From a virus, in IMG/VR virus record IMGVR_UViG_3300045999_007840, positions 1 to 46,732 of that record: a DNA stretch of 46,732 nucleotides; one strand, 5' to 3'. Below the pieces are notes generated by a model. It made no database searches. It was not told the DNA's origin and was given only the letters and a program-made list of their open reading frames with translations. The position numbers and the translations under genes are program-made. The first letter of the stretch is position 1. Each line of letters starts with the position of its first letter. Positions 7,175 through 42,217 of the stretch are shown here, in pieces.

Positions 7175-7463
7175 GCGTCACCTGTGCTATCTGGACCTCT
7201 GAAATTGAATGGGCAGCACCGTCGCCACCCTCTGATTTACTGACCACCTCAGCGAGTGCTGCGTACTCGCGAACCGTGTGATCGCCGAACCGCGTCAGGA
7301 TCAGCATCGCCATCAGGACTGTGCAGCGTGCCAGCCATGCAGCTGCGGTCCGCCGCCATCCCGTTTCTCTCACCGCCTCACGCGCCACCAGCAGGCCAAT
7401 GGTGAGGCAGGCCCACGCACAAAATGCCACTCGGTACCAGTGCTGTAAAATCTCAGGGGTCAT
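6921..7463 (-). CDS. Membrane protein with two predicted TM segments (holin candidate), 180 aa
   Basis: The start is placed at ATG 7463 because it overlaps the stop of the 70-aa membrane gene as ATGA; the open frame extends further upstream without need. Two hydrophobic segments lie near the N terminus (YRVAFCAWACLTIGLLVA at about 10-27 and ARCTVLMAMLILTRFG at about 43-58), with Arg-rich residues between and after them. The rest is soluble and, in its last 85 residues, low in obvious structure; that part overlaps the 109-aa gene in another frame. Two TM segments in a cassette with a protease suggest a holin or a similar lysis protein, but this is inference. Confidence 0.55.
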   Translation of the reverse strand: MTPEILQHWYRVAFCAWACLTIGLLVAREAVRETGWRRTAAAWLARCTVLMAMLILTRFGDHTVREYAALAEVVSKSEGGDGAAHSISEVQIAQVTHVDRYKSPDGWQAEFETYGPGRTHRGTLTAGDSAGQMLPAIRRSAGGWGKRLDSLGDSAAAAGNPEGVQTGKRGDEFRIRGQRF

Positions 7464-7672
7464 TTCAATGGGCTCCAGATCAGTCCAGCAGAGTAGGTGA
7501 CGATCGCGACAGCGAGGGCATACACAACCCACCGCCAGGCGGTTCCGGTGTGCTCCATGATCGTCTTGAGGGTTCGCGGCGAGATGCGAACCGAGAACCC
7601 AGGGCCCTGAATGTGCAGGACGTCGGGCTCGCGATCGTCGGGAGTTGTATCGTCCGTTTTGTGTTCGTCCAT
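7460..7672 (-). CDS. Small single-pass membrane protein, 70 aa
   Basis: The first 45 residues are charged and soluble (MDEHKTDDTTPDDREPDV...), and one hydrophobic segment (WVVYALAVAIVTYSAGLIW, about 49-67) ends the protein. This tail-anchored pattern is common in phage antiholins, spanin-like and other small envelope proteins. Its stop overlaps the start of the two-TM protein by ATGA, suggesting the two act together, possibly in lysis. No homologue is recognised by eye. Confidence 0.6.
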   Translation of the reverse strand: MDEHKTDDTTPDDREPDVLHIQGPGFSVRISPRTLKTIMEHTGTAWRWVVYALAVAIVTYSAGLIWSPLK

Positions 7673-7739: not shown

Positions 7740-8225
7740 TCAACCTGATTCCGGCGGCGGCGGTGTCGGCTGCTCTGGATTCTGTTTTGGGGCCTGCGGA
7801 ATTCGTGCGGCGAGGGATTTCGCGGTCTGGTAGCCGATCGCCTGCCAGACCGGGATTCTGTCGGATCGGCGGACCACCTGAAACGTCGGCAGCGATGTAA
7901 TGCCGGGAATCAGGACCCGCTGATTTTTGGCCTTGTCTGTGACCCATCGCGGTTGATTCCACTGCGGCTGCTCATCAACATCGACCACAGTCACCGCCAC
8001 GCCAGCAGCCCGCAGGCTGGCCAGCTCGTCGCGTCTCCACCGCTGGCAGGGCCCGCACCATTTGGCGGAGTAGACCACCACGTAATAGCCAGCCGGATCG
8101 ACTGCGGCGGGGGCTGCAGCCGCGGCCGGCGGCTTTGGCTGTGCTGGCGGAGCTGGCGGAGTGCGGACCGTGAAATTGATTTCGTCGCAGACGATGCAGG
8201 CCAGCAGTAGTGTGAGTGCAGTCAT
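7740..8225 (-). CDS. Thioredoxin-fold protein with CGPC active site, 161 aa
   Basis: Probable thiol-disulfide oxidoreductase. The start is ATG 8225, which overlaps the stop of the papain-like gene by ATGA. Residues 1-13 are hydrophobic (MTALTLLLACIVC) and may be an export signal or lipobox-like anchor, though they lack the usual positive charge. A Pro/Ala linker (22-45) leads to a thioredoxin domain: strand YYVVVYSAKW, CGPC at 57-60, a VDVDEQP strand, and the cis-Pro loop SLPTF. The C-terminal tail is Pro-rich. Being coupled to a cysteine protease, it may keep the catalytic thiol reduced or reduce disulfides in the host envelope; both are inference. Confidence 0.85.
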   Translation of the reverse strand: MTALTLLLACIVCDEINFTVRTPPAPPAQPKPPAAAAAPAAVDPAGYYVVVYSAKWCGPCQRWRRDELASLRAAGVAVTVVDVDEQPQWNQPRWVTDKAKNQRVLIPGITSLPTFQVVRRSDRIPVWQAIGYQTAKSLAARIPQAPKQNPEQPTPPPPESG

Positions 8226-9052
8226 TTGCGAGACCCCTTCGCGTTTGTGTTGGCGGCCCGGATTGAGATCGGACCACAAGCGTCATCGGGCAGCATCCGG
8301 CTGCCCTGCAGAATGCCATAGCCGTCCTTGCCCCAGTTCTGCCAGCTGTTGCGGATCCGGATTGCAATTGTGCCATCAAGCCACAGCGGATCGCAGTTGG
8401 TAATCTCGTGTCCCCACCAATTGTATCCGCCGGCAATCGGGATATCTCGCAGCAGGCAGCTCACCAACTGGTCGAGATTGCGTGGCTCGCACTCGATCCA
8501 CTCACGGTAACGATAGGATTTCGCGGCCTCCCATGTGTCCGGTTTATCCCATCGCCGATCAATTGCTGTGTCGGGCCAGGCAGCGGTCGGAACTATGCCC
8601 TGCTGGAAACAGAATTTGACGGCCTCCAATCCCCAGCCGCCCACGTTGCGGAACCCCTTAATCTTACAGGCGATTGAGGCCGGGCTCAGTGAGACATAGG
8701 GCAGGCCATGCCTTACGCGCAGAAGCTCGGCTGCGTGCACTGGCGCGTTAGCCCAGCAGAAGTTTGTGCTCTGCTGATTTTTGTGCGGGATGCGAAGTGC
8801 GGTTGTCAACTGCATCCACGTCCCGGCCTTTTCGGTCCGCTCCTGTATGCGGGCCTGCCATTCACTGCGAGGGATCAGCAGATCGTCGGTGAATTTGCGA
8901 GCGAATCCGGTGTAGGCGTAGCCCTCACGCGGTCGCTCAGCGAGAGTCAGACCACGGCCACAGTCCTCACCTGCATCGTGTGTGACGTGCTCAGGTGTCG
9001 ATTCGTTGATAATGGGTTCGCCGGCAAATACGCGGCTTGAAAAATTGCTCAT
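8222..9052 (-). CDS. Papain-family (C1-like) cysteine protease, 276 aa
   Basis: The catalytic layout of papain is clear: oxyanion-hole Gln93, nucleophile Cys99 followed by Trp100 (NFCWANAPVHAAE), His215 in WGHEIT, and Asn235 in IRNSWQNWGKDGYG, the familiar NSW...WG..GY block. About 80 N-terminal residues precede the catalytic domain and could be a propeptide-like or targeting region; no signal peptide is seen. It is coupled to the thioredoxin gene downstream and to an exported PQ-linker protein upstream (both ATGA). The only obvious candidate wall hydrolase in this region is this protease, so it could be a lysis enzyme acting on a protein-based envelope, or it could process virion or host proteins. 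Confidence 0.85.
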   Translation of the reverse strand: MSNFSSRVFAGEPIINESTPEHVTHDAGEDCGRGLTLAERPREGYAYTGFARKFTDDLLIPRSEWQARIQERTEKAGTWMQLTTALRIPHKNQQSTNFCWANAPVHAAELLRVRHGLPYVSLSPASIACKIKGFRNVGGWGLEAVKFCFQQGIVPTAAWPDTAIDRRWDKPDTWEAAKSYRYREWIECEPRNLDQLVSCLLRDIPIAGGYNWWGHEITNCDPLWLDGTIAIRIRNSWQNWGKDGYGILQGSRMLPDDACGPISIRAANTNAKGSRK

Positions 9053-9873
9053 CGGCCTGAGAGCCTCTTGAGTTCGGAGAGTAGCGAGTCGGTGTCTGTG
9101 ATCGGGACGATATCCACCTGCGTGCCAACTGCGATCACAGCCTGTGGACCATCGGGCAGTTGCGGCCGGACCGCGGTCCAGAGCTTCTGAAATACTGGAT
9201 CATCCTCGTCCAGCTCGCCGTCCACTGAGATCGTCGAGCGGTCGTAGCGTCGCCACTCGGGGGCTCCGCTGGCGGCCTTGCGGCAGTTCGCGTCGAGCCA
9301 CTGCCTCACGGTCAGGCTGGAAATTGCCAGCAGGGCGGCGGGGTCGTCTGTCTCATCGGCTAGCAGCATCACGCGGATGCCATCTGAGGGTTTTGGTTGC
9401 GGTTGCGGTTGTGGTTGTGGTTGTGGCGTCGGCCCCGGGGGCGGCTGAGGCCCACCCCCAGAGACGACGAAAGTCCGCTTCACTACCGATTCAGCCTCGA
9501 GACTGCTCACGAAAAACACCGTCGTGGCGCCCGGTGTCCCAGCAGTCAGCAGATACACGTGCGGCTCACCAAACGTGCTCCAAGATGCACGCGGCGAACC
9601 ATGCAAGCGGGCAAACACTCTGATAGGGCCCTCTGAGTGTTCCACCTGCAATGCCTGAGGGTTCGTTGACAAAATCAGCATCGGCTGAACGCTGCCAACC
9701 ACATAGACAGCGTCACCGCTCAATTGGATCTCCGCCGCCGGCCCGAGATCGACAGCAGGTGGTGACGGTACCGGCTGGATCACGACTGGTGCCGGCGGCG
9801 GAGGGTCGGTATGCAGGGTAATCGGTTTCGCCGAATCCTGCAGTAGTATGAGAGCAGCGAGAATTTGCCACAC
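9049..9873 (-). CDS. Putative exported protein with PQ-repeat linker, 274 aa
   Basis: Two domains joined by a low-complexity linker. GTG 9873 gives good spacing (9 bases) from GGAG; TTG 9879 is the alternative. The N terminus (WQILAALILLQ) is a short hydrophobic export-like segment, followed by Pro-rich residues and a beta-sandwich-like domain of about 110 residues. PGPTPQPQPQPQPQPKP (about 148-164) then separates it from a C-terminal alpha/beta domain beginning IRVMLLADETDDPAALLA. I do not recognise that domain. Coupling to the papain-like protease suggests a shared job at or outside the host membrane. Confidence 0.6.
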   Translation of the reverse strand: MWQILAALILLQDSAKPITLHTDPPPPAPVVIQPVPSPPAVDLGPAAEIQLSGDAVYVVGSVQPMLILSTNPQALQVEHSEGPIRVFARLHGSPRASWSTFGEPHVYLLTAGTPGATTVFFVSSLEAESVVKRTFVVSGGGPQPPPGPTPQPQPQPQPQPKPSDGIRVMLLADETDDPAALLAISSLTVRQWLDANCRKAASGAPEWRRYDRSTISVDGELDEDDPVFQKLWTAVRPQLPDGPQAVIAVGTQVDIVPITDTDSLLSELKRLSGR

Positions 9874-9879
9874 AGTCAA

Positions 9880-10302
9880 TCACTCCAGATTGAGGGAGCT
9901 GCCGTAAGCGGAGGCAGCAGCGATAGCCTTCGAGGGTGCCGATACAGTTTCCTGAATCGCAGCCTGAGCGAGCTGGCGGGCCTGATCGTCAGTCAGTTCC
10001 CATTCGCTGCGGATGAATCGCTTGCCCTCAAGTCGGCATTTGCGGCGAGCGGCCTTCAATGTCGCCGTCTGGAAGTGTTTTGCAGCTCGTGCCACCGCCC
10101 GCGAATTGTCGTCATTGTGGGCCTTCACCACTGCGGACTGGACGTCGGTATCGTCCTGAATCCTGAAGCATTTTTTGATCAGTCCGTTAACGATCGGAAC
10201 CACTGTCGGCAGCAGTGCCAGAATCGCCGGAGAGATGCCGTAGCCGCCGCCCACGCGGGCCTCGACATTGCCACAAAAATCGTTGAGAGCTCTCTGAGTC
10301 AT
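9880..10302 (-). CDS. Hypothetical protein with hydrophobic segment, 140 aa
   Basis: A basic helical protein. A hydrophobic stretch (ISPAILALLPTVVPIVNGL, about 23-41) could insert in or peripherally bind the membrane; the remainder is Ala/Arg/Lys/Gln-rich helix. ATG 10302 (or GTG 10305) is preceded by GGTGA. It lies between a DUF1353-like gene and the PQ-linker exported protein, four bases and seven bases away. A holin-like role is possible but not supported by any motif. Confidence 0.5.
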   Translation of the reverse strand: MTQRALNDFCGNVEARVGGGYGISPAILALLPTVVPIVNGLIKKCFRIQDDTDVQSAVVKAHNDDNSRAVARAAKHFQTATLKAARRKCRLEGKRFIRSEWELTDDQARQLAQAAIQETVSAPSKAIAAASAYGSSLNLE

Positions 10303-10306
10303 CACG

Positions 10307-10720
10307 TCACCACTTTCGTTTTTTTGACCACTGCCAGGCGGTCAGACCATAGATCCGCACCGCAGCCCACATGAGCATGCGGAGCGGCTTCGAAACACCA
10401 GCTGCAGCCAGCAGCCGGAGAAACACAGCGTCGGCGATTGTGCGGTCCTCGATCGTCCGAGACGACTCGCACAACCTATCATGCCAGAGCGATGCCCAGC
10501 GATATTCTGCGAGCAGCGGGTGTCCAATCACTGACCACGCAGCCCGGGGAATTGACGCCCCGTCCCATGAGTCACCCTCGTACTCATACCGACTGATTCG
10601 TGCCTGCCCGTGGTGCAGGACGATTTCGCAGTCTCGAGTGAATTGCAGTCGACCATCCTGCGTGAGGCAGACTGGCAGCGACCGACCATCGAGCACAGTG
10701 AGAGTGTCGAGGTCTCTCAT
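10307..10720 (-). CDS. DUF1353-like protein, 137 aa
   Basis: Resembles the DUF1353 family found in phages and prophages, often close to lysis or tail genes. The supporting block is GDSWDGASIPRAAWSVIGHP, then the AEYRWASLWHDRLCE segment with the conserved His-Asp, and a hydrophobic C-terminal helix (RMLMWAAVRIYGL). The start at ATG 10720 overlaps the stop of the nuclease gene upstream by ATGA. The biochemical function of DUF1353 is not known to me; the His-Asp pair hints at metal binding. Confidence 0.65.
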   Translation of the reverse strand: MRDLDTLTVLDGRSLPVCLTQDGRLQFTRDCEIVLHHGQARISRYEYEGDSWDGASIPRAAWSVIGHPLLAEYRWASLWHDRLCESSRTIEDRTIADAVFLRLLAAAGVSKPLRMLMWAAVRIYGLTAWQWSKKRKW

Positions 10721-11064
10721 TTTTTGCCCCCGAAATAGGCTACGCCATGCCCCTCGGAAATCATGACAGGTGCCACGTGCACAGGCCATCCGTTGAGTAT
10801 GACGGTTAGCCGAACCAGCGTGCGGCCAAATTTATCAGGCCTCAGAGTCTCAGCCACTGTCACGCCATTCGCCAGCAGCTCTCGCAGCCTGTCGGCCGCA
10901 GCCTCACCGGCCTGTTTGGTCTCGCCGTGCATTTCCGGGGTGTCGATGCCATACAGGCGGAAGTGCTCCTGCCACCAGCAGCGGTTTCCGAGATCAATCC
11001 GCAGCTCGACGGTGTCGCCGTCGATAACCCGGATAACCTCCACATGCTCGTACCGATAGGCCAC
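10717..11064 (-). CDS. Staphylococcal-nuclease-like (SNase) nuclease, 115 aa
   Basis: A compact thermonuclease-family domain. It carries VIDGDTVELRI (metal-binding Asp), RLYGIDTPE (Arg36, Asp41, Glu44) and KFGRTLVRL (Arg81), i.e. the catalytic Arg-Asp-Glu-Arg set of micrococcal nuclease. The start is GTG 11064 with GAGGTG five bases upstream. No signal peptide is present, so it probably acts inside the infected cell or is released on lysis, degrading DNA or RNA. It is coupled to the DUF1353-like gene. It is shorter than the secreted bacterial enzymes (about 150 aa) but has the full core. Confidence 0.85.
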   Translation of the reverse strand: MAYRYEHVEVIRVIDGDTVELRIDLGNRCWWQEHFRLYGIDTPEMHGETKQAGEAAADRLRELLANGVTVAETLRPDKFGRTLVRLTVILNGWPVHVAPVMISEGHGVAYFGGKK

Positions 11065-12272: not shown

Positions 12273-12539
12273 GGGTTTCGCTAGGTAAAACACTGGGTTT
12301 TTGAAAAGTGTTGCGCTGTTGCGCTATTTTCACCCGAAGATACCCCTATATGTGTGAGTATGCGGGTATATATGAGAGTGTGTGAGTGAGTGAGAGAGAG
12401 CACCGCGAGCCCCTCGCCGGCAGGCGCAACAGCGCAACAGTTACTACTTACTAAACTACTAAACTACTACTACATAATGCTTTAGGGAATACTCAGTAGT
12501 GTTGCGCTTGTCAAAAATCGAGGCGCAACGCTGCGCAAC
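12226..12539. repeat. Ten GTTGCGC heptamers in both orientations; origin-like region
   Basis: GTTGCGC occurs at 12226, 12244, 12310, 12318 and 12501; its complement GCGCAAC at 12236, 12424, 12432, 12523 and 12533 (first base given). Two pairs with an 8-base period form an exact 15-bp inverted repeat, GTTGCGCTGTTGCGC (12310-12324) and its complement (12424-12438), around about 100 bases. Between and after them lie TATATAT/GTGAG-rich DNA (12350-12400) and an AT-rich block of ACTAC/ACTAA repeats (12440-12485), striking in a GC-rich genome. It directly follows the primase-helicase gene. Iterons, an AT-rich unwinding element and a replication gene suggest a replication origin; a regulatory array is the alternative. 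Confidence 0.6.
12486..12514 (-). promoter_or_regulatory. Weak candidate promoter in the repeat region
   Basis: On the minus strand a perfect TTGACA (12514-12509) is followed after 17 bases by TATTCC (12491-12486), a poor -10 box (3 of 6). It is correctly oriented to transcribe the 139-aa gene, the DpdA-like gene and those beyond. The -35 match is good; the -10 is not, so this remains tentative. Confidence 0.25.
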
Positions 12540-15334
12540 TACTGGCTCATTCTCTGCCCGAATGGGTCCAATTGTTCACCGGGTTCGGATGTTTCGCCCT
12601 TGAGCTGGCCGAATAGGGAGCGGGGAATCGCAATGAATCGCAGGCTGGCTTTCCCTGAACGCCTGACCACTCGGGAGACTCCGGGAATGCGGCTCAGGAT
12701 CTGGTCAATCCGTTTCCCCCGCCATTCCGAGCTCAGCAGGTATCGTGTGGCGAGCGATTTGTTGAACAACACAGCATCACCCTCTGCAATCACACCCACG
12801 GCCTCCAGAGACTCCTCAATCTGTGACTGGTACTTGTGTTCCAGGCAGAACGCCAGAGACAGCCTGCGGCCCCCTGGCAGCGGAATCTGAGATAGCATCA
12901 GCTCGTGCAGCAGCATTTCCGCATCTGACTCCACCTGATCAGATTCGGAGATCCCCGCCAAGGCCCGCAGGAACAGGTCCAGAGCCTCGATCTCACTCAT
13001 CCCGACCGATGTGGCATACATGCTGATCGGGACTGCGTATGACTCGCACACGCGGCCGTGCACGCCCTCAGGCCGGCGAGCCAGGCAATAGTCCGCCACC
13101 TCCCGAGCTCGACGGACATTCAGGATGGCGGTGGCGGCCAGCCGTCGGCCCAGTGCCTCGAGATCCTCGTTTTGTGGGACGTCGATTTTTTGATTGGTCT
13201 TCTGCAACTCAATCACGATGAAGCGGCTGGAGTCCGCCTCATTCAGCAGGCCGGATTCAATCGAGGCGCACCAGAAAATGTGCTGCAATTTGTACGCCAT
13301 ATGACCGTGCTGGCCAGCCGTGCCACGAAACACCTCGTCACCGCGGCCTGATGACCGCACCATCTCAAATATCTCGGGGCGGTGTTTGTTTTTCTCGAGC
13401 TCATCACAGAGGGCAATCCGGCCGGAATTCCGCAGGGCCTGCCGGATCCCAGCCGCAGACGACTGAGCGGAGTTGGCCTGCAATTTGCCGAACAGGGCGG
13501 CCAGCGCGTGCATCATCGTTGTTTTCCCGGCGTAGGCCTGGCCGATGAGGAATACCTGAGGCCTCCACCGCCAGAGCGTCTGGACAAAACTGGCCATGAC
13601 CAGCCCCGTCAGGACCTCGGGAATCACCCCGTCTGGATTGCGGTAGCTCCATCTTGCGAACAGGGCCTGCAGCGCGAACACGTCATCCACGTGCAGCGTG
13701 CCGGGCTGCGCCCCAACCCCGCAGATCTGGTCTGCCAGTGCGTTCATGTCGATCCACTCGCAGCGGTCGCCGACGTCGTAGGCCTGATTTTTGAAGACCG
13801 GATTCTGCGAGATCGACAGCTGCGGACTGCCGTTCAGGATCCCGAGCTGGCGGCTCGAGACGATGACCAGGTTGCACCCCGATTCCCACACACCCACTCC
13901 GCGCTTGTCGGTGACCGCAGACGTCTGAGCGGCCACTGATGCAATGGCCAGCTTAACCTGAGCCAGCGTGAACTGCCCAGAGTCATCGCCACCCCGCTGA
14001 ACATGGACCATCACGGGATGACCGGCCGCCAGCACCAGCTGCTCGTATTTGATGCTGCTCGGGTCCTTGAACCTCGAAAACTTGCGGGTGGCGTCGCTGA
14101 AAATCTCGATCGCTCCGCTGGTGTCATCGGCAGCACAGTAGATGATTCCGAGCGTGTCCAGAATCGCCTTGTGCAGCTTGAGGTGCTCCGGGATCACCAC
14201 GGGATCCGGATCCTGCACCAGTTGGACATGGGCGGGAATTGCCACCACTGCTGGCTCACGCGGCCGAATTGGATCCGGCTCCCACCGGTCCGACTGCAGC
14301 GCCCGACCTCGCTCTCCGGGGGCCTTGTCGGCGTCGCTTAGTTTGTGGAGCAGCTCCCGATCTGACCACGGTGGAGAGCAGCGGTCATTCCACTCCGCCA
14401 GAATCGGCAGGGCGTCTTCGATGCTCAGATCAAAATCGCGGACCAGCACACAGGCCGCATGGAATGTCGTGTCATGCCCTGACTCACCAGAGACTGCCGG
14501 CGGGATCTTCGCGAGGTAGGCCGCCGCCCGATCGACCACCGATTTTCGCGGCCGCGTCTTGCCTCGCTCGCGGGTCCCTTTGGCTTTTTCTTTTGGGGCT
14601 TCCGCTGCCAAGGCCTCAATCTTCGACCAGTCACAAACATGGATCGTCTCAGGGACCTTCACCAGCTCACTCACTCGGTGTGGTCGCTCTGGTGAATGGT
14701 CACCCTTGCGGCTCACAGTGCCGTACAATTTGCAGACCCTGGCGGCGTTGAAGACCTTCGTGTCGACCTTCACGCTGCCGTTATCGAATCGGTTGGCAAT
14801 CTCCCGCAGTGCGTTCCGGATCGTCTCAGTGGCCTCATCGTTGTTCGGAACGTCGATCCGGTAATGCAGGTGCCAACCGTTGCCAGAGCTTGCCAGAATG
14901 GGTGCGGGGAATGCTCGGCTGGCCAGAAATGCAGCCACCGCATCGGCAGTAGCTCGAGCTGCCAACCATTCAGCCTCACTCGAGGAAATGCCTGCCGGCC
15001 GCTTCGGGTCGCAGTCGATGAAAAACCACTTGCGGCGGATGATGTCTGCATCGGCTGCGGTGCTGTCAATCCGCTCCGCGATCCGGTTGTTCGCTCGGTT
15101 CTGCAGGTCCGCCGGAAACTCATTCAGGACGAAATAAATCCCCGAGTTTTTCGGGTGCATCGCATGGCCTGCGATTGCACCTGCAGCGATTTCGTAGCGT
15201 GAAAAATAGCCCGCATCAGTTCGGGATTTACTCCCGAATGCGTTGATGATCCGGACCTCTGCGACTGAACCGCCGCAGAAAATTTCCAGCGTTCGCCGAA
15301 CGTCTGCCGCATTGAATGGAACGACTGCTGCCAC
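12539..15334 (-). CDS. Primase-helicase (AEP-type primase fused to SF3/DUF927-like ATPase), 931 aa
   Basis: Probable replication initiator. I place the start at GTG 15334, seven bases after GGAG; a TTG-started extension to 15469 lacks such a site. The N-terminal 200 residues look like an archaeo-eukaryotic primase-type domain: FFIDCDPKRP (metal-binding Asp-x-Asp, about 100-110), SGNGWHLHYRI (about 148) and KVFNAARVCKLYGT. The C-terminal half has a helicase ATPase: GQAYAGKTTMMHAL (Walker A, about 595) and IALCDELEKNKH (Walker B-like, about 640). Such fusions synthesise primers and unwind DNA at the fork. It is followed by the iteron-like region. No phage DNA polymerase is found, so host polymerase would extend its primers. 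Confidence 0.8.
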   Translation of the reverse strand: MAAVVPFNAADVRRTLEIFCGGSVAEVRIINAFGSKSRTDAGYFSRYEIAAGAIAGHAMHPKNSGIYFVLNEFPADLQNRANNRIAERIDSTAADADIIRRKWFFIDCDPKRPAGISSSEAEWLAARATADAVAAFLASRAFPAPILASSGNGWHLHYRIDVPNNDEATETIRNALREIANRFDNGSVKVDTKVFNAARVCKLYGTVSRKGDHSPERPHRVSELVKVPETIHVCDWSKIEALAAEAPKEKAKGTRERGKTRPRKSVVDRAAAYLAKIPPAVSGESGHDTTFHAACVLVRDFDLSIEDALPILAEWNDRCSPPWSDRELLHKLSDADKAPGERGRALQSDRWEPDPIRPREPAVVAIPAHVQLVQDPDPVVIPEHLKLHKAILDTLGIIYCAADDTSGAIEIFSDATRKFSRFKDPSSIKYEQLVLAAGHPVMVHVQRGGDDSGQFTLAQVKLAIASVAAQTSAVTDKRGVGVWESGCNLVIVSSRQLGILNGSPQLSISQNPVFKNQAYDVGDRCEWIDMNALADQICGVGAQPGTLHVDDVFALQALFARWSYRNPDGVIPEVLTGLVMASFVQTLWRWRPQVFLIGQAYAGKTTMMHALAALFGKLQANSAQSSAAGIRQALRNSGRIALCDELEKNKHRPEIFEMVRSSGRGDEVFRGTAGQHGHMAYKLQHIFWCASIESGLLNEADSSRFIVIELQKTNQKIDVPQNEDLEALGRRLAATAILNVRRAREVADYCLARRPEGVHGRVCESYAVPISMYATSVGMSEIEALDLFLRALAGISESDQVESDAEMLLHELMLSQIPLPGGRRLSLAFCLEHKYQSQIEESLEAVGVIAEGDAVLFNKSLATRYLLSSEWRGKRIDQILSRIPGVSRVVRRSGKASLRFIAIPRSLFGQLKGETSEPGEQLDPFGQRMSQ

Positions 15335-15469
15335 CGTGCATCTCCAGCATGTATTCGCCGCCGCTGCGGTGCGAGCGCAGACGGCGGCAATCCGGCGTTG
15401 TACCGGACTGGAAACGAGAGGCACACGTCGGCGGCTCGCACCCGCTGACGTGGTTATGTCACCACACAA
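15335..15469. other. 135-base gap upstream of the primase-helicase
   Basis: Open in the primase frame without a stop, but the only upstream starts lack ribosome-binding sites, and its translation (Arg/Ala/Thr-rich) is unlike a folded domain. It may be a leader. I see no strong promoter or terminator in it. Confidence 0.35.
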
Positions 15470-26896: not shown

Positions 26897-27622
26897 TCAG
26901 AGTTGGAGTGGCTTTAGATGGATGCGGTCCATGAGATTTACGGGGCTGCAGCCCCACAAAATCACCTCCGGAAACGGAAAAACGCCGCTCCGGTAGACGT
27001 CGGCAGGCAGGCCCGCTGTGTTGCCAAACTCCGCGTCATACGATTGCCAAACGTCGTAGGCTGTCGGCGGGTCGATCGTCTGCGGGGCGGTCCGCGGAAA
27101 CATCGACCATCGCCGCAGGTCATCACCCTCGGTAATCGTCGGGCGGCCCGCCACTGGTGGATTCTCCGGCGGCTCGGCGAATCGAGCCCCCGGCGGCAGG
27201 TATTCATTGCATTGGATCGTGTATGTTTTCCCGGCCCATTTTGGGTGCTCGCGGCCCGATCCGGACCAGAAAAACCCGGCCAAATTCCCATTCAGCGTAC
27301 TAATGTTTCGCCGCCGGCAGAACTGCCAGTTGAACAGGTCGCGATAAATGCGGCTGCCTTTCTCCGGCCCCTCGGTTGCCACCAAATCTGCCAGCAGTGT
27401 CGTGTCATATGACACGAGATAGCCAGTGGTCTGCAGCACCCGCCGGCAGACGTCGATCAGCGTATCGTCCTGATAGACTGCGATCAGGTACGGCACACCG
27501 ATAGCGTCGAAACACCCGCGGTTGGTCACCGCAATCTCGGGGGCCATCGGGTCATCGAGGGCCCCAGGGTGCAGCCAGCCAGGCATGGGATTCCATGGAT
27601 TACAGATTGTGCTCGCGTGCAT
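26897..27622 (-). CDS. Hypothetical protein of the glycosyltransferase block, 241 aa
   Basis: Unrecognised and rich in Trp, Tyr, Pro and Gly. Segments such as FDAIGVPYLIAVYQDDTLID and SRIYRDLFNWQFCRRRNIST, and later GKTYTIQCNEYLPPGARFAE, suggest a globular mixed fold. It overlaps the GT2 gene by 23 bases and is the last gene of the block. It might process or anchor the glycan, or be a virion protein; no motif decides this. Confidence 0.55.
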   Translation of the reverse strand: MHASTICNPWNPMPGWLHPGALDDPMAPEIAVTNRGCFDAIGVPYLIAVYQDDTLIDVCRRVLQTTGYLVSYDTTLLADLVATEGPEKGSRIYRDLFNWQFCRRRNISTLNGNLAGFFWSGSGREHPKWAGKTYTIQCNEYLPPGARFAEPPENPPVAGRPTITEGDDLRRWSMFPRTAPQTIDPPTAYDVWQSYDAEFGNTAGLPADVYRSGVFPFPEVILWGCSPVNLMDRIHLKPLQL

Positions 27623-28358
27623 AGAGAACCTGCGTGTAGATGTCGAGCTGGGGGTTGAGCGTCTGCACCCATTCGCGTCCGAGCTGCTGCCGCTCGTGGT
27701 CCCGATACCATTGCGTATCTCCAGGCCCGCTGGCCAGCGATTGCCCGTGGTAGTGGTTTGTGTGCCACCTGAAAACGTAGGACGGTGGAGCCCACTGACA
27801 TGGGTCGACTGTTTTGCCGGCGGCCGCGAAATGACTCATCATCTGCTGATCAAAATTTGCGGCGTCAGTGAGCGGCCATCCGCCGCGCTCAGCCCAGTGA
27901 GTTCGGCGGAATGCGATCGAGCCGTGAAATCTGCCAGCAGCCTCCTCAATAATCGCCTCACCAAGGCTGCAGCCGTAATCACTGAGCACTTGCGAGGGCT
28001 TACTGAAATCGCCATCTTCCAATGCTGTCACATGAGCCATCGTATGATGCGGCAGGAATGAATCATCATCCTCCGCCACGATGATGATGTCATGTTCATC
28101 GCCAATCTCAGCGAGTGAAACCAAGGCGTTAAATTTGCCCGGCAGCGAGTTGAATCGCTGGTTAATCGAAATCACCTTCCACCGATCTCCGCGGCAGTCC
28201 TCAGAATACTGGCCAGCATCGTCGAGGATGATCAGTTGCAGTTGCTCTGGCGGATACTGCTGAGCCTGAAAACAGGCGATCAAATTCGGCAGCGTTTGCG
28301 GCCGGCAGTAAGTCGGTGTAATCCACGTGACACGTGGCAGGATCAGTTGGTTTTGCAT
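27600..28358 (-). CDS. Family 2-type glycosyltransferase (GT-A fold), 252 aa
   Basis: A GT-A glycosyltransferase by motif: WITPTYCRPQTLPNLIACF (nucleotide-binding start), LIILDDAG, and IIIVAEDDDSF at about 91-101 with the metal-binding acidic cluster Glu96-Asp99. Later WAERGGWPLTDAANFDQQMM resembles the acceptor-side block of GT2 enzymes. There is no signal peptide or membrane segment, so it should act in the cytoplasm with a nucleotide sugar. It overlaps the genes on both sides (16 and 23 bases), implying tight co-expression with the two other glycosyltransferases. Confidence 0.8.
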   Translation of the reverse strand: MQNQLILPRVTWITPTYCRPQTLPNLIACFQAQQYPPEQLQLIILDDAGQYSEDCRGDRWKVISINQRFNSLPGKFNALVSLAEIGDEHDIIIVAEDDDSFLPHHTMAHVTALEDGDFSKPSQVLSDYGCSLGEAIIEEAAGRFHGSIAFRRTHWAERGGWPLTDAANFDQQMMSHFAAAGKTVDPCQWAPPSYVFRWHTNHYHGQSLASGPGDTQWYRDHERQQLGREWVQTLNPQLDIYTQVLYAREHNL

Positions 28359-29007: not shown

Positions 29008-29934
29008 TCAGCAGAACAGTGAGAGTGCAGGGTAGGCTATCGGATTGCTGGCCAGCGTCGCAAACTGTGCCGACGTCAGGCGGCCATCGCGGGATTCACC
29101 CAGCCCGGTATCCTCGTTAATCCCGTAGACGTAGTGGTTCCGCAGTCGCTCCAGACTAATCCCAAGCTCCTGATGTCCGATCATAAAATTGCGGATCTTT
29201 CCATGGAGGCTAAGCGGTGATTTTCTGCCGCCCACCGGATCGCCGAATCTGTGCTGCCATCGCAGGAACGGCAGGCATTTGCAGTCGTAGCCGGCCTTGC
29301 GAAACTTCTCATGGATGTACCATTCTTCCCCGCCAAACTCGCGGAAATGCGGATTGAAGCCCAGCCACGCATCGCGGCGGCAACTGAACAATCCGAGCCC
29401 CATGGCGGGAATGGAAAACGGCTCCGCGTCGATGTCTCGGCCCCGATCGTCGATGCCCCACGTCCCCCACATGCCATCTCGCCACGTGTCGGTAAAATGC
29501 GTGTAGACTGTGGAGTGATTATCCAGCAGCAGCGGGCCTGACAATAGGTCTCTGCAGTCTGGATTTTGGCGGTAAAACGCCAGCAGTTTTTCAACGGCTC
29601 CGCCCACCAGCATAACATGCGAATCCATCACCAGCACAGCATCGCCGGCGGCTTCGTGGAATATCCTATCCCGCGGTGCGGACGTCCCCTGAATCTCGCC
29701 GAACGGTATCCAGCGAGCGGAAAACGGATGCCCCGGCTGACCACTTTGAATGCCGGAGTTTATGTGGCTGAACAGGCCCTTCGCCCGCTGCCCACATGGT
29801 GAGTCCGGGGCGTTGTCGATGACGATTAGCTCCACGTCCTCTATCACATGCGAGTGATACAGTCGGAGAGCGTTAAGCGAGAAATACAGGCCATCAAAAT
29901 CGTTGTGTGTCGCGAATCCGATTGTCAGTTTCAT
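29008..29934 (-). CDS. Polypeptide GalNAc-transferase-like glycosyltransferase, 308 aa
   Basis: A GT-A transferase with features of mucin-type polypeptide GalNAc-transferases (GT27). The metal motif is Asp104-Ser-His106 in VLVMDSHVMLVGG (GT27 enzymes use D-x-H, commonly DSH). The second block, FREFGGEEWYIHEKFRKAGY leading to LPFLRWQHRFG, closely parallels the GT27 GGENxEISFRxW...P-S-R-x-x-H-x-F region. The start is IGFATHNDFDGLYFSLNALR. There is no lectin domain or membrane anchor. The gene overlaps by ATGA the 3' end of a tail gene that encodes a Thr/Pro-rich mucin-like tail, making that protein the obvious acceptor. GT2 of other specificity is the alternative. Confidence 0.75.
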   Translation of the reverse strand: MKLTIGFATHNDFDGLYFSLNALRLYHSHVIEDVELIVIDNAPDSPCGQRAKGLFSHINSGIQSGQPGHPFSARWIPFGEIQGTSAPRDRIFHEAAGDAVLVMDSHVMLVGGAVEKLLAFYRQNPDCRDLLSGPLLLDNHSTVYTHFTDTWRDGMWGTWGIDDRGRDIDAEPFSIPAMGLGLFSCRRDAWLGFNPHFREFGGEEWYIHEKFRKAGYDCKCLPFLRWQHRFGDPVGGRKSPLSLHGKIRNFMIGHQELGISLERLRNHYVYGINEDTGLGESRDGRLTSAQFATLASNPIAYPALSLFC

Positions 29935-33652: not shown

Positions 33653-34675
33653 TCAGGTAAACAACAGATTGAAATCGAGTTTGCGCGGGATCAGATACTT
33701 GACGAAATGCAGATCAGATTTTTCCAACTTTTGTTTTAGCACCCATTCGTATTGCGGAGTTTCGTCGGGTGGCGCCACGTTTTTGTATTCACGAATTTGA
33801 TTTCCGTCTTTGTTGAGCGGAACGGGCTTTTGCACCGCTTTGCCGGCGGAGTCTGTTGCTGGCCTGCGGATCTCCTGAGTGTATGCTAGGATCTTCCGCG
33901 GCTGGCCAATCAGCGTTTGCTCCCATGGTGCATAAATTGGTTTCGGCGGAAAGTACTCGGTGAGTCCCTGATTCAGGTATTCGCTTCGCCAAGTCGATTC
34001 ACGATACATGAATTGCAGCGGCATTTCACGGTATTCGATTTCGCGTCCGTCAACCTCTGTGTACTGCGGAAGTGACAGCCGAATGCCTCGCATTTTGAGC
34101 GTCTCAGGTGCAGCAATAAAGCCGTCCAGTTCGACCGGATCAGAGTTCACGCACACATTCGCGAACTGTCCCAGCCACTGCGGAATTTGCGTGACGTATC
34201 GCGTTCCGGAGAACACCAGAATCTGTTCCTCGCGAACGATGCCGATCAGTGCTTCGCCGGCGGTGTTTACCAGTGGGTTGCCCTCGCCGTCAATCTCGGC
34301 CGGCACCTCATCAAAGTCCGTTTCCACCTCAAATTTCAGCGGGCGCCGAAGGGGGTTCGGGTCGCTGGTTGTCCCTCGTCCGGTGCCAACTCTCAGCACC
34401 AACTCAACCACCGCCTGGCAGTGCTCGCTGTTGGCGATTTTTTCGATCTTCAATCGCTCGACGTAGTATCCGGTTGAGCGGTAAATGCCCGGCGACAGAT
34501 CCGGAAACAATGAGGCGCAGAGGTCCTCGGACATATCCGCCTGATCGGTCAGGCAGATCAGATTCCAGTATTCTGTTACGCGGCGTTCTGGCGTGCCGTC
34601 CTGAGGATACGTCAGTTCGCCGTCTCGCTGGTGGGCGAGTTCGCGGCGCCAAAGTCTGGCCTGTGGCAGTGCCAT
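33653..34675 (-). CDS. Hypothetical tail protein, 340 aa
   Basis: Directly downstream of the tape measure gene (their stop and start share one base), the place of distal tail or baseplate hub proteins in siphoviruses. The sequence is mixed alpha/beta with YWNLICLTDQADMSEDLCAS, GYYVERLKIEKIANSEHCQA and a C-terminal Tyr/Lys-rich part. I see no diagnostic Dit or Tal motif. Function is inferred from gene order. Confidence 0.6.
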   Translation of the reverse strand: MALPQARLWRRELAHQRDGELTYPQDGTPERRVTEYWNLICLTDQADMSEDLCASLFPDLSPGIYRSTGYYVERLKIEKIANSEHCQAVVELVLRVGTGRGTTSDPNPLRRPLKFEVETDFDEVPAEIDGEGNPLVNTAGEALIGIVREEQILVFSGTRYVTQIPQWLGQFANVCVNSDPVELDGFIAAPETLKMRGIRLSLPQYTEVDGREIEYREMPLQFMYRESTWRSEYLNQGLTEYFPPKPIYAPWEQTLIGQPRKILAYTQEIRRPATDSAGKAVQKPVPLNKDGNQIREYKNVAPPDETPQYEWVLKQKLEKSDLHFVKYLIPRKLDFNLLFT

Positions 34676-36864
34676 TATCTGCGGCTCCCTCTGATCACGA
34701 CTGCATTCTGCCGGGTCTCGCGGCGGGTCCGCTCAAACTCATCCTCAAGCGTCCCTTCGAGCGATTTCACGGCCTCAGTGGTTTCGTCCTGTGCGGCCTG
34801 CTGATTCAGCGATTCGTAGATCGCTCGCTGACCCTCCTGCGTGCGTTTGTCCACAGCGTCGACGAATGCAGCCCGCTCTTGCTGAACTGCGGTCACGTTG
34901 CGGCGCACCTGGGTGGCCAGCTGGTTGCCCGGTGAGGTTCCGCCGGGCTGGGTCGGATCAATCTGTGAGATCTGTTTTTGGTCCTTTTTCAAGACCTCGC
35001 TGCGGGCCTTTGCCTGATCCACTGCGGTCTGCAGCTCGAGCTGAACAGCCTGCACCTCGGCGGCGTAGGCCTGCCGCTCCGCCTCGTATGCGGCCTGTCG
35101 CTGATCTTCTTCGGCTCGGACCATCTGATTCAGTTTTTCGACGTTGCTGATTCGCTGCGGAACGTCACGCCCCACCATGCTATTTGCCCAGTCGGTCAGC
35201 TCCTGAATTTTGTCGCGGATCATTGCCACCGCGGAGGCCGGAGCCAGCGTGATGTTGTTCCACAACTGAGCCCAGATTTCGCGAATCGTGATGCCCATTT
35301 CATTCATCCCGGATCGGATGTTGATCAATCCGATTTGAATAGCGGCCCACGCTGAGGACATGGCCAACTCAAGAGCCCCTTCGAGGTCACCAGATCGGAC
35401 CATGTCCACAACCTGCTGGAATGCCGGGGTGAACGTCGTCAGCATCGTGTTGGCCATGCCCTGCAGGTTGACGTCAGCCCCTGCGATTGCCACGCCAGCA
35501 GCCGCCAGAACCACCGGGATTGCAATCCACGGATTCAACATCAGAGTGACCGCAGAACCCAGTAGGCCAGCGGCTGCCGTTGCGATCGCAAAAACCTTCG
35601 TGACGATTGCCACAGCCAGGCCGGCAGCCGCAGCCACCACAGCCAGAGACGACAGGATTTTTGCTGTCGCGATCAGGGCCACGCCAGCGGTGAACACGAC
35701 AGCGGTGAGCTTCAGAGCGTAGACGATCAGCTGCTGATTCTGTGCGATCCATCCAGTGATTCTTCCGGTGAGATCGGTGATGTACGTGCCGAATTGCTCG
35801 AGCATCGGAGACAGTGCAGTCCCGATTGCGATCGCGGCCCCCTCGATTGCTGAGGTGAATCGTCGCCACACTCCGCCGGGTCCGGCGTCCATCTGGTTGG
35901 CCGTTCGCTCTGCTGTGCCACCAGCACTCATGAGGGCCTGCGAAAGCCTCTCAGTTTCGGCGGCGGTGTTTGCAATCACCGTCGCTCCGGTGATACCCAA
36001 CAGGCCGAATGCCTCATTCATTTTGGCGATGCGCTGGCCACTGGGTAGGCCATTGGTTGCCCTAGCCAGTTCGCCCATGACGGTAACCAGCGGCCGGAGA
36101 TTGCCGGCGGCGTCCAAAAATTCCACCCCAAATAACTGCCGCATTTTGTCGGCCTCTGCGGCCGTGATCGTCCCAAGGCGGCGGAGTGCGGTTCCGGCGT
36201 TGCTGCCCTGAATGCCCACGTTTCCAAGTGTGCCAAGGATCGCGACTGTATCCTCGAGGGACATTCCGAGATCCGCGGCAACCGGGCCAGCATAGCTGAG
36301 AGCCTCGCCGAGCTGGTCCACCGAATTGAACGTGGCGTTTGCCGCCAGCGTCAAGACGTCAGCCACGCGGGTGGCGTGCTCGGCTCCGAGCGAAAACTGG
36401 CGGAGCGTGGCAGCCATGATCCCAGCCGACATGACAGCATCAGTCCCGCTGGCTCGTGAGAGATTTAGCACCGCGGCGGTCATTGTGTCGATCTCGTCCG
36501 GAGAGAAACCGGCCCTCCCGAGTTCGCCCATCAGCTGAGCCACCTGCACCGCCGTGAATGACGTGGTCCGCCCCAGCTCGAGGGCTGTTTCGCGGAGCTG
36601 ATCGAGCTGTGCTCCAGTGGCCTGCGAGACCGCTCCAGTCATCCGAATCGCATCGTCAAACTGGATCAGCTGAGCCACTGGCAAAGCAGTGGCTGCGAGC
36701 CCACCAAACCCCGCAGCGAATGCAGTTCGGCCAATGTTCTGGACCCTTGCACCGAACTGCCGCAGGCGGCGTTCTGCCACCGTCAGACCGCGCTTGAGCG
36801 GGTTGTCCTCGAGGAAGAATTCCACGAATGCCCGGCCCGCTCGTACTGATCGACTCGATGCCAT
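34675..36864 (-). CDS. Tail tape measure protein, 729 aa
   Basis: Determines tail length and probably helps DNA entry. It begins with a basic, helical region (VAERRLRQFGARVQNIGRTA), then the TP901-type core: FDDAIRMTGAVSQATGAQLD, ETALELGRTTSFTAVQVAQL, ELGRAGFSPDEID and ALSYAGPVAADLGMSLEDTV. Hydrophobic membrane-like stretches lie at about residues 395-455 (TAVVFTAGVALIATAKI; VVAAAGLAVAIV; ATAAAGLLGSAVTL). The C-terminal 200 residues are coiled coil. At about 0.15 nm per residue the tail would be near 110 nm. It starts ten bases after the stop of the frameshifted chaperone. Confidence 0.92.
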   Translation of the reverse strand: MASSRSVRAGRAFVEFFLEDNPLKRGLTVAERRLRQFGARVQNIGRTAFAAGFGGLAATALPVAQLIQFDDAIRMTGAVSQATGAQLDQLRETALELGRTTSFTAVQVAQLMGELGRAGFSPDEIDTMTAAVLNLSRASGTDAVMSAGIMAATLRQFSLGAEHATRVADVLTLAANATFNSVDQLGEALSYAGPVAADLGMSLEDTVAILGTLGNVGIQGSNAGTALRRLGTITAAEADKMRQLFGVEFLDAAGNLRPLVTVMGELARATNGLPSGQRIAKMNEAFGLLGITGATVIANTAAETERLSQALMSAGGTAERTANQMDAGPGGVWRRFTSAIEGAAIAIGTALSPMLEQFGTYITDLTGRITGWIAQNQQLIVYALKLTAVVFTAGVALIATAKILSSLAVVAAAAGLAVAIVTKVFAIATAAAGLLGSAVTLMLNPWIAIPVVLAAAGVAIAGADVNLQGMANTMLTTFTPAFQQVVDMVRSGDLEGALELAMSSAWAAIQIGLINIRSGMNEMGITIREIWAQLWNNITLAPASAVAMIRDKIQELTDWANSMVGRDVPQRISNVEKLNQMVRAEEDQRQAAYEAERQAYAAEVQAVQLELQTAVDQAKARSEVLKKDQKQISQIDPTQPGGTSPGNQLATQVRRNVTAVQQERAAFVDAVDKRTQEGQRAIYESLNQQAAQDETTEAVKSLEGTLEDEFERTRRETRQNAVVIRGSRR

Positions 36865-38240: not shown

Positions 38241-38905
38241 CAGAATATGTCCCTAAAAATCCTCGGAATCTGTCGATCAATTGCCGTATCGAATGCCGGT
38301 CGCATGTATGGCCGCGGAGCCACGGTAACCGGCTTTTTTTCAAACGATGCTCGCACCTTGTTTTCTTCAGCCAGAAACCACCGCGGCCGGTATGCCACAG
38401 TGGTCCCACCATACTCCAGCAGCCCTGGGATGTCTTTGTTGTCGAAGATGATCGGGCCAATAACAACTGAGGCCAGATTCGGTTCGACAATGAACAGGAT
38501 CAGGTCACGAAAGCGGCTGAAAATCTTGCCACTGAACGTGTAATCCTTGCGGTAGTTCGGCGGTGAATTCGGGGCCGAAATTGTCTGCGGCCATGGCTGC
38601 ACAATGTCTTTCAGTTCCGCGTCTTGAGCTTTGCGAGCACCGGGCAAAAATCGCCCGCGTTTGTCGCGCTTGAGCTCGAATCTGTCGAGACCCACAAGTT
38701 CCTTAATTTCCTGCGGCAACTCATCCGCTCGCAGGTCCCGTTTCGGCTCCAGCGAGTTGCGAGCCACTCGCATGACGTAGGCCCCGAACGTGGCGAGGCG
38801 GCGGCGGGCCACCTTGTCCAGGCGGCTCACGATCGCGGGACGATCCAGAAACAGGGTCTTCGCCTGTTTCACGGTCATCCGTAAACCGAATTCCTCCACG
38901 CTCAT
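38240..38905 (-). CDS. HK97 gp10-like neck/tail completion protein, 221 aa
   Basis: ATG 38905 is used because it overlaps the upstream stop by ATGA; the frame is open further. A helical N-terminal part (RPAIVSRLDKVARRRLATFG followed by YVMRVARNSL) is followed by an insert and a C-terminal beta part with IPGLLEYGGTT and APRPYMRPAFDTAIDRQIPR, the G..P-R-PF-rP-A block of HK97 gp10-family proteins. It should join head and tail. Its stop shares a base with the tail tube start. Confidence 0.72.
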   Translation of the reverse strand: MSVEEFGLRMTVKQAKTLFLDRPAIVSRLDKVARRRLATFGAYVMRVARNSLEPKRDLRADELPQEIKELVGLDRFELKRDKRGRFLPGARKAQDAELKDIVQPWPQTISAPNSPPNYRKDYTFSGKIFSRFRDLILFIVEPNLASVVIGPIIFDNKDIPGLLEYGGTTVAYRPRWFLAEENKVRASFEKKPVTVAPRPYMRPAFDTAIDRQIPRIFRDIF

Positions 38906-39973: not shown

Positions 39974-42217
39974 TCAGGCGTTGTTACGCTGAACCGACTT
40001 GCGGCGGACTGGTGCGATGCCTGCGGCCATGCTGCAATCGTACCAGAATCCGAACATGCCATTGCCAAGGGTGCCGGTTCGCAGACGTGGAACGCGGCCC
40101 AGTCCGGCCACGTAAACCAGTTCGATCGCCGGCTGTGTGGCGTCTGCAATCCACCACGTGGTTGGCACACCGGCCACCGTCGCCGGAATGTCGGCAGCGT
40201 CGGTCGGGTCCGTGAATCCGTTGTCGATTCGGGCGTCGCTCAGCACACCACCGATCTGGCCTGCCAGAACGTTCAGAGAGCTGCGGGTCGCATTCTCGCC
40301 GGTGATCAATGCAGACGGGCTCAGCAGTTCGGCGGCGGTGAATCGGGCCGCTCGGCTCACAATCAGGTGAGTCGGGCGAACGTCGATATTCACCCCGTTT
40401 TCCTGCTGCGTCTCGAAGGCGGTCAGGCCGCTGATCAGGTTGTCGCGGTTCAGGGCCTTACTGGTTCGCAGGTTCCCGTCCGTCGTGTTGAAGAACGCCC
40501 GCGTGTTGCTCATCGTCGGGTTGGCGATGAGAACGTAGGCGATCAGGTCATAGAGCAGGCGGCGGCTTCTCTGGCCCATCACTGCACCAGCCTGGCGGAG
40601 CGTGTCAAAACGCTCGTCGATCAGGTCCTGCTCAGAGAACTGGAACCGGTCAGCGTACATTTTCGCCCGGATCTGCTCGCCGTTGGCGCTCATCGAGATG
40701 TCCTTCGCCACACCCTGATTCGGGAGCGGGCGAGGTGCACCACCGGTCAACTCCAAGGCCTTGCGTTCTGCGGCCATGAAATTCTGGACGTCGGATTCGG
40801 TGACCAGCTGCATCAGCTCGCTGGTCTGCTCAACCCACGATGCCATCACGCGAGCGTTCAGGGCCTGCGTGTACATGTCGGTAATCGCCGTGCTGCTGAA
40901 TGCGGCTCGCAGCCACTCATCAGAACGCCAGTGGCCAAGAGATGCCAGATCCTGACCGCTGAGGCGTGCAGCCTGCGCGAACAACTCAACCATCCCATGA
41001 CCGCGGTATCGGTCAGCCTGATCCATTGCTCGCTGGCGGAACTGATCATTCACCGGCCGGCGAAGGCTGGCGTTCAGCGAGATCCGCGAATCGCGGGCTT
41101 CGTAGACTGGATGATCAGGCCGAACACCAAGGCGGTCAGCGAATGCGATCGCCAGCGAGGCCTGAATCAGATCACGATCAGGAGCTGCCGGAGTGTGCAC
41201 AGCCGGAGCCTGAGGGCGGCGAGAGCGGAGAGCGTGCAACTCGAATCGCTCCGGAGTCCAGCGGTTGGTGATCGCGTGAGCCAGTGCAGGCTGACCGTCG
41301 ATTGCCGGCGGCTGCAGTGAGGCGTTGAGGGCGGTCAGGGCTTCGACTCGCTGCACCTGTGCTGCGGCGTCCTGCTCATACTGGGAGATCGTCGGGCGAT
41401 TGTCGCCGGGCTGTGCCTGCTGCTGGCCAGCTGCGGGCTGAGCGTCACCCTGGGCGGCCGGAGCGGCCTGAGCGTCGCCCTGAGCAGCCGGAGCGGCGGC
41501 GGGCTGCGGAACGTCGTCCTCGGCGTCTGCGTTGGCGCCTCTCCATGCGGTCCGGAGTGCGGTGAGGGCGTCAGCGCTCAGCATTGCCACCGTCAGCCCC
41601 AGCGAGGTCAGGTATTGAGAAAATTTCACTGCGGTCGGCTCCTGTGCGAGTGTGCCAAAACTGGCGGCTAATTTTGCCACCGCTCCACCGGCGTCTGCGC
41701 CGGTCGCGGTGAATGTGATCTCTCTTAGCTCGGCATGCCTAGCGAGCAAGAATGGGCCTGTCAACAGCTGTCCATTCAAATTTTCTGAACGGCCCTCTGG
41801 AATCTCCAGGATGTTTGACCGGTCGACCACCACGCCAACCGATAGCTGCCACTGGAATCCGTTGGCGGCACTGTTCACCACGCGGTCACGCCACTCGGTT
41901 TCCGCGCTCGCGTAGCCTGTCGCAGTGATCGAGCTCGCACCGATTTTGATGGCCTCAGCATGGCCCACCGGCTGCGTGTTGTCGTGGTCAAGCAGCAGCG
42001 GCACTGGCATGCCGTCGACCAACTTCATGGTCGACAGATCGAACACCACTGGCATGGATCGGCCGGGGATGTGGGCCTTGCCGCCAGTGTATGCCAGCAG
42101 GTTGAATTTGCGGACCTTTGCGCCGCCGGCGGCTTCGATCGTCTCGAGTGTCGCCAGTCCGCCGGGGATCGGCATGTTTACCGGGTTCGATGCCTCAATT
42201 TTGAGTTTGCTGACCAT
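39974..42217 (-). CDS. Fused prohead protease-major capsid protein, 747 aa
   Basis: One polypeptide combines the capsid maturation protease and the HK97-fold shell protein. Residues 1-200 have the U35/S78 prohead protease pattern: MPVPLLLDHDNTQPVGHAEA (catalytic His), ITATGYASAE, NGFQWQLSVGV (catalytic Ser) and ELREITFTATGADAG. A Gln/Ala/Pro-rich linker with repeated AAPAAQGDAQ follows (about 240-280). The rest (about 290-747) is a major capsid protein with NTRAFFNTTDGNLRTSKALN, THLIVSRAARFTAAELL and a C-terminal FWYDCSMAAGIAPVRRKSVQ. ATG 42217 has AGAGG upstream, though 12 bases away; the gene overlaps the portal gene by 23 bases. The protease probably cleaves itself off during head maturation. 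Confidence 0.82.
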   Translation of the reverse strand: MVSKLKIEASNPVNMPIPGGLATLETIEAAGGAKVRKFNLLAYTGGKAHIPGRSMPVVFDLSTMKLVDGMPVPLLLDHDNTQPVGHAEAIKIGASSITATGYASAETEWRDRVVNSAANGFQWQLSVGVVVDRSNILEIPEGRSENLNGQLLTGPFLLARHAELREITFTATGADAGGAVAKLAASFGTLAQEPTAVKFSQYLTSLGLTVAMLSADALTALRTAWRGANADAEDDVPQPAAAPAAQGDAQAAPAAQGDAQPAAGQQQAQPGDNRPTISQYEQDAAAQVQRVEALTALNASLQPPAIDGQPALAHAITNRWTPERFELHALRSRRPQAPAVHTPAAPDRDLIQASLAIAFADRLGVRPDHPVYEARDSRISLNASLRRPVNDQFRQRAMDQADRYRGHGMVELFAQAARLSGQDLASLGHWRSDEWLRAAFSSTAITDMYTQALNARVMASWVEQTSELMQLVTESDVQNFMAAERKALELTGGAPRPLPNQGVAKDISMSANGEQIRAKMYADRFQFSEQDLIDERFDTLRQAGAVMGQRSRRLLYDLIAYVLIANPTMSNTRAFFNTTDGNLRTSKALNRDNLISGLTAFETQQENGVNIDVRPTHLIVSRAARFTAAELLSPSALITGENATRSSLNVLAGQIGGVLSDARIDNGFTDPTDAADIPATVAGVPTTWWIADATQPAIELVYVAGLGRVPRLRTGTLGNGMFGFWYDCSMAAGIAPVRRKSVQRNNA

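Follow-up and report, generated by a model that had tools for sequence, protein, structure and literature searches.

Lysis of non-murein walls by thiol peptidases has been described for archaeal phages: PeiW and PeiP, the pseudomurein endoisopeptidases (family C71) of psiM100 and psiM2, are lysins of the papain superfamily (PMC2989375) and, by analogy, would be the best functional precedent for lysis by a protease. A second point of reference is the conventional holin-endolysin cassette, in which a signal-less enzyme encoded in the late region has exported and membrane proteins as its neighbours and can be exchanged among unrelated families next to a constant neighbour, DUF1353. To our knowledge, no phage has so far been shown to burst its host by digesting envelope proteins.

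The locus described here lies in a complete IMG/VR virus record of the siphophage type (46,732 bases; hereafter, the window) and consists of three genes encoding an exported or membrane-anchored partner with a C-terminal domain that we refer to as pTrx, a papain-like cysteine protease and a thioredoxin. The trio has the papain-superfamily thiol peptidase in common with PeiW and PeiP, and the layout and exchangeability of the enzyme in common with the holin-endolysin cassette. However, in a comparison made via the literature, PeiW and PeiP belong to another family with other fold details and carry wall-binding repeats, and neither a thioredoxin nor an exported partner has been described for them; no C71 profile was reported in the Pfam scan of the window proteins. 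From the holin-endolysin cassette, the trio differs in that it includes no recognised peptidoglycan hydrolase but a protease and a thioredoxin instead, and in that the window holin is only guessed.

Transcription of the window proceeds almost wholly from the minus strand, and the genes follow the order terminase (44152-46365), portal, capsid-protease fusion, tape measure (34675-36864), RecT, helicase and primase (12539-15469). The cassette is placed after the primase and is followed by LamG and other fibre-like genes (Table 1). All the parts that had been noted from the letters of the window were recovered, including the PQ-linker protein, the flanking membrane proteins and a four-nucleotide ATGA overlap at both trio junctions, which is consistent with translational coupling. 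The same gene order was found in the related phage L002, whose papain is 49% identical, and members of the papain family were found in 58 further viral contigs; judged from this recurrence, the trio is well beyond chance. Upstream, the SNase-like gene is a conserved neighbour that is exported in some relatives and occupies the same place in L002, where its product has a signal-like N-terminus. In many loci, XG recurs as the gene immediately preceding the exported partner, and it may be a holin-like or membrane component.

Table 1 Features of the cassette and its neighbourhood in the window
Feature	Position	Strand	Evidence or remark
SNase-like protein	10717-11064	-	Pfam PF00565, E 1e-6; phrog_452 endonuclease, E 4e-21
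DUF1353 protein	10307-10720	-	PF07087, E 2e-14
XG, small conserved protein	9880-10305	-	one hydrophobic segment near the N-terminus
Exported/membrane-anchored pTrx partner	9049-9873	-	GTG start at 9873
pTrx domain	9058-9402	-	strand order b-a-b-a-b-b-a; alignment of 36 homologues and model secondary structure
Papain-like cysteine protease	8222-9052	-	C1A fold (model); without signal peptide
Thioredoxin	7740-8225	-	PF00085; CGPC site; export-type hydrophobic N-terminus
Small single-TM protein	7460-7672	-	conserved behind the trio; likewise kept in the sibling G034, whose trio is swapped
Second membrane protein, 180 aa	6921-7463	-	open reading frame, ATG at 7463; positional counterparts in L002 and G034

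Two further features of the window lie outside the cassette. Two glycosyltransferase-2-like proteins (27600-28358 and 29008-29934), just under the Pfam cut-off, follow the tail genes and are strongly conserved in close relatives. As listed, the portal and capsid-protease reading frames share ~300 nt (42195-42502), read in different frames, probably as a result of an upstream start call.

The match of the protease to Pfam Peptidase_C1 (PF00112) is only just over the cut-off (E 4e-4), and PDB cathepsins match it by sequence at E 2e-4 at best. Its AlphaFold model (pLDDT 91, pTM 0.90) retrieved xylellain (3ois) and procathepsin K (7pck) as the top Foldseek matches (E 3e-10 to 5e-10), and a C1A fold can be predicted with confidence. 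The complete papain layout recognised earlier was borne out: Q93, C99 (codon 8758-8756), H215 and N235, in the order Gln-Cys-His-Asn, are invariant across an alignment of 28 sequences with 34-51% identity to the window protein. The fold, this layout and an N-terminal segment ahead of the core are common to the C1A family (papain/cathepsin, xylellain), whereas the window papain is only ~20% identical to the solved members, phage-encoded, signal-less and always paired with pTrx, and it carries TNYCW in place of the usual CGSCW context. A function as head-maturation protease was rejected, as the capsid gene carries its own protease domain. The family was absent from the 50,697 deposited phage records searched, and among 84,980 species genomes, it was found in one 3.2-kb contig only, which belongs to a Burkholderiaceae MAG and is probably a stray phage fragment. 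Host assignment via genome matching was rejected, given this single contig and the lack of a host annotation for the records. One family member (L028:1349-2779) lacks the C-terminal H and N motifs beyond residue ~200, probably owing to a frameshift in the contig.

The exported partner starts with a hydrophobic N-terminus, followed by a beta-sandwich domain, a PQ linker and the pTrx domain, which is predicted to adopt a thioredoxin fold without cysteines. Both domains are modelled confidently (AlphaFold pLDDT 84 overall, mostly above 90 in the C-terminal domain). The conserved part comprises the last ~110 residues; outside pTrx, some partners have no more than one hydrophobic segment, and others have up to a beta-sandwich with a Pro-rich linker. 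Among the 36 aligned homologues, D54 and P86 are nearly invariant, P86 being the proline that precedes strand 3 of the modelled b-a-b-a-b-b-a fold, and a CxxC site is absent from all of them. Homology of pTrx to thioredoxins at the sequence level was rejected, as neither hhalign against the cassette thioredoxins nor a PDB profile search (best E 0.41) gave a significant result; with a Foldseek match to thioredoxin 5g31 of E 0.009, the likeness seen in the model is a fold resemblance only. A match of the partner to DUF2868 fell below the cut-off and was discarded.

The pTrx domain is encoded directly before the papain in all 55 testable loci, that is, those with enough upstream DNA, and in 39/39 after dereplication (papains clustered at 90%). 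Independent matches to a pTrx profile, made from 21 of these partner proteins, mostly reached E 1e-13 or better, with a weaker value in L059 (9e-4). Within the scanned papain loci, the domain was seen only beside papains, and a single-sequence scan for papain-free occurrences returned its own source contig as the sole match. Of the new findings, this strict pairing is the most robust, and it holds independently of function. It also modifies the view of the trio as a unit that the sequence-only reading had taken: the three genes are there, but the invariant partner of the protease is the exported PQ-linker protein and not the thioredoxin. Second, divergent pTrx-papain pairs were found in three loci (L012:15740-16662, L020:6494-7401 and L032:8619-9532), in tandem in L020 and L032 and ~5 kb away in L012, which suggests duplication or a functional split.

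The thioredoxin assignment was confirmed by a PF00085 match over the cut-off (E 8e-6), by the invariance of C57, C60 and P113 among 14 homologues and by the match of the cassette thioredoxin profile to solved thioredoxins (E 1e-9). The CxxC site and the cis-Pro position are common to PF00085 thioredoxins, whereas the cassette proteins are phage-encoded, possess an export-type N-terminus and proline-rich extensions, and in two cases (L009:1548-2450 and L027:10862-11809) are fused, in either order, to a trypsin-like protease straight after the papain. A CxxC thioredoxin follows the papain in 31 of the 58 testable records (15/39 dereplicated), an underestimate, since the profile misses a CSPC protein at that position in L059. 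The thioredoxin is thus common yet optional. In several loci (L013:6729-7268, L017:5098-5760, L014:3435-4124, L023:10678-11187 and L030:10777-11340), a small His-rich domain (HLxxxHG ... LH...H), sometimes fused to thioredoxin, recurs C-terminally in the exported proteins right after the papain.

Export-type hydrophobic N-termini were present in 44/48 distinct pTrx proteins, 17/18 distinct thioredoxins and 0/53 papains, a pattern to be read as a strong tendency, as the choice of starts favoured the pTrx and thioredoxin groups; in L059, the pTrx protein begins with a twin-arginine-like motif. The earlier proposal that the thioredoxin keeps the papain cysteine reduced inside the cell is therefore unlikely, because the thioredoxin has an export-type N-terminus and the papain has no signal. 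Reduction of the papain after its release, or of disulfides in the substrate, would fit better.

The cassette slot itself is subject to replacement. In G034 (IMGVR_UViG_3300045999_006694, 45.5 kb), the closest full-length relative of the window, with a terminase 87% identical, the genome is collinear with the window from the terminase to thymidylate synthase; another relative, G031, ends before the cassette. G034 retains SNase, DUF1353 and XG before the slot and the small TM protein after it (38693-38866, 33% identical), but no copy of the window partner, papain or thioredoxin was detected in it at 1e-4 (tblastn). In their place are a different exported partner, a signal-less protease with papain-like motifs (QQRNDC, GGGH and WNSHGDG) and an exported CAPC thioredoxin. 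The exported protein has an N-terminal domain related to the partners of the papain family (36% to L004) and has no pTrx domain. This arrangement, type B, occurs in five further records, and the DUF1353-anchored scan adds more. For the type-B protease, homology was detected neither to the type-A enzyme nor to solved papains, and the protease may be called papain-like from its motif order. That one slot can hold either of two unrelated proteases, each flanked by an exported protein on one side and an exported thioredoxin on the other, suggests that an exported partner, a thiol protease and a thioredoxin cooperate.

DUF1353 was also used as an anchor to survey the genes behind it in other phages. 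TtaP, the founding characterised member of this family, has phospholipase A2 activity, and fusions of the domain with protease, endonuclease or lysozyme domains are known elsewhere (PMC11525133); by analogy with TtaP, the window protein may have phospholipase A2 activity. The label "tail assembly chaperone", given to DUF1353 by PHROGs (phrog_1158) and in several deposited records, conflicts with this biochemistry and looks wrong. Right after DUF1353 or DUF1353-SNase, exported trypsin-like proteases are encoded in L205, L208, L221 and L222, and exported thioredoxin fusions are found behind DUF1353 in L161, L188, L213 and L214. Conventional lysins occupy this position in other records (M15_3 in L215 and L223/L224, lysozyme in L234 and amidase in L209), and holin families are also found near DUF1353 in the same set. 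Among eight deposited phages inspected, the Fnu1 amidase and the NrS-2 lysozyme lie close behind DUF1353, and the other six have no such gene there. Next to DUF1353-SNase, a conserved ~265-aa protein (WYNVG...) without a known family follows the exported thioredoxin fusion (L161:6354-7178, L188:6878-7675 and L214:6854-7642) and is a possible further occupant of the slot.

Another important question is whether a conventional lysin is present after all. The earlier impression that no muramidase, amidase or transglycosylase is visible held up in the PHROGs and Pfam scans, which revealed no peptidoglycan hydrolase among the window proteins scanned. Phage_lysozyme, SLT, M15_3, M23, CHAP and NLPC_P60 were found in 0/28 papain-phage records and Amidase_2 in 0/22, counts that come from records that are often fragments; lysins can, moreover, be unrecognisable. 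M15_3 was present in 5/12 conventional DUF1353 records and in 0/41 records with a protease or thioredoxin in the slot (Fisher p 3e-4, relatedness ignored). Amidase_2 and Phage_lysozyme were also absent in 30 terminase relatives without a papain match (by a papain search that had no positive control); their absence is therefore not diagnostic, and the lack of a lysin was rejected as stand-alone proof. As for holins, a holin of phrog_199 is encoded in L031, ~2.4 kb away from the papain gene, and uncharacterised small TM families are found elsewhere; in the window, XG and the TM proteins gave no holin profile match, and no clear holin was recognised.

Taken together, these sequence comparisons lead us, with moderate confidence, to regard the trio as most likely a protease-based lysis or envelope-breaking module. 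The late-region position, the replacement by proteases and endolysins beside DUF1353 and the lack of a standard peptidoglycan hydrolase in the searched records support this reading, and the replacement, including the swap in G034, is the best functional evidence. The lysis cassette of the sequence-only reading thus stands in these three respects, but not in the role it gave the thioredoxin, in the identity of the invariant partner or in the protein wall of the host. In such a module, the trio would be the catalytic part and would do by proteolysis and thiol chemistry what a peptidoglycan hydrolase does in other phages. Late in infection, the CxxC thioredoxin and, usually, the pTrx partner would be exported and stand ready in the periplasm or at the membrane, and the signal-less papain, as is usual for endolysins, would accumulate in the cytoplasm. 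A holin-like protein would open the membrane, perhaps helped by the DUF1353 phospholipase, and the papain would escape, meet pTrx as a docking, positioning or activating partner and cut envelope proteins. The thioredoxin would reduce substrate disulfides, keep C99 reduced outside the cytoplasm, or both.

The fact that DUF1353 does not invariably lie beside lysins in deposited phages counts against lysis, as do cassettes in places atypical of lysis genes, which are among head genes in L052 and L056 and, in L031, between the genes for tail tube and tape measure. These places would suit a virion-associated protease, carried in or on the particle, that aids entry through cleavage of a surface layer of protein, or else processes proteins of the virion, with pTrx assisting folding or delivery; the lack of a signal peptide on the papain agrees with such a role, and so does the position among structural genes in general, before fibres in the window and L002 and before the terminase in 22/53 loci. 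We nevertheless consider it unlikely, as export-type N-termini on the obligate partner and the thioredoxin would be odd for virion assembly, slot swaps place the same DUF1353 marker next to trypsins or peptidoglycan hydrolases, and the window already has a head-maturation protease fused to its capsid protein. Cleavage of host surface proteins by the papain and its exported partner during infection, which would exclude other phages or change the host but not lyse it, appears quite improbable: the mobility of the cassette among differing late positions, its exported components and the duplicated pairs resemble accessory-gene behaviour, but the endolysin replacement next to DUF1353 and the missing peptidoglycan hydrolases would be left unexplained. 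We give very little credence to a counter-defence pair, in which a membrane-bound pTrx protein, as inhibitor or chaperone, restrains a toxic cytoplasmic papain until the protease attacks its target, a defence or regulatory protein of the host, since, despite the strict 1:1 pairing with tight overlap (55/55) and the minimal pTrx proteins made up of a TM segment and the conserved domain alone, most pTrx N-termini look export-type and would place the domain across the membrane from the papain, no association with defence genes was seen, and the type-B partner has no pTrx domain.

If the trio does serve lysis, it may belong to an undescribed class, 'proteolytic lysis', a proposal that we put forward tentatively and hold to be possible rather than probable: unrelated proteases, secreted or released, together with an exported thioredoxin and a phospholipase would replace peptidoglycan hydrolases in phages of hosts with a disulfide-linked protein envelope. 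The proteases might be of at least three unrelated kinds, namely the C1A papain with its Cys-less thioredoxin-fold partner, the second papain-like family and trypsin. The protein wall suggested by the sequence-only reading hinges on the host, and planctomycetes are the obvious candidates. Their envelope was described in the older literature as proline- and cysteine-rich, disulfide-stabilised protein (PMC3035269), which fits the chemistry of the cassette, yet planctomycetes were later shown to possess peptidoglycan (PMC4432640, PMC4432595).

Whatever its function, the papain and its exported Cys-less thioredoxin-fold protein, found together in 39/39 dereplicated phage lineages, form an uncharacterised pair that is amenable to testing. 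If the lysis reading is true, these phages would open their hosts by proteases together with thiol reduction, either in place of peptidoglycan hydrolases or in addition to them, which would explain the failure of standard lysin searches in this group of phages and provide new tools against lysozyme-resistant envelopes. Such cassettes would also be a genetic readout of the dependence of bacterial walls on disulfide-linked protein, the old and disputed claim made for planctomycetes.
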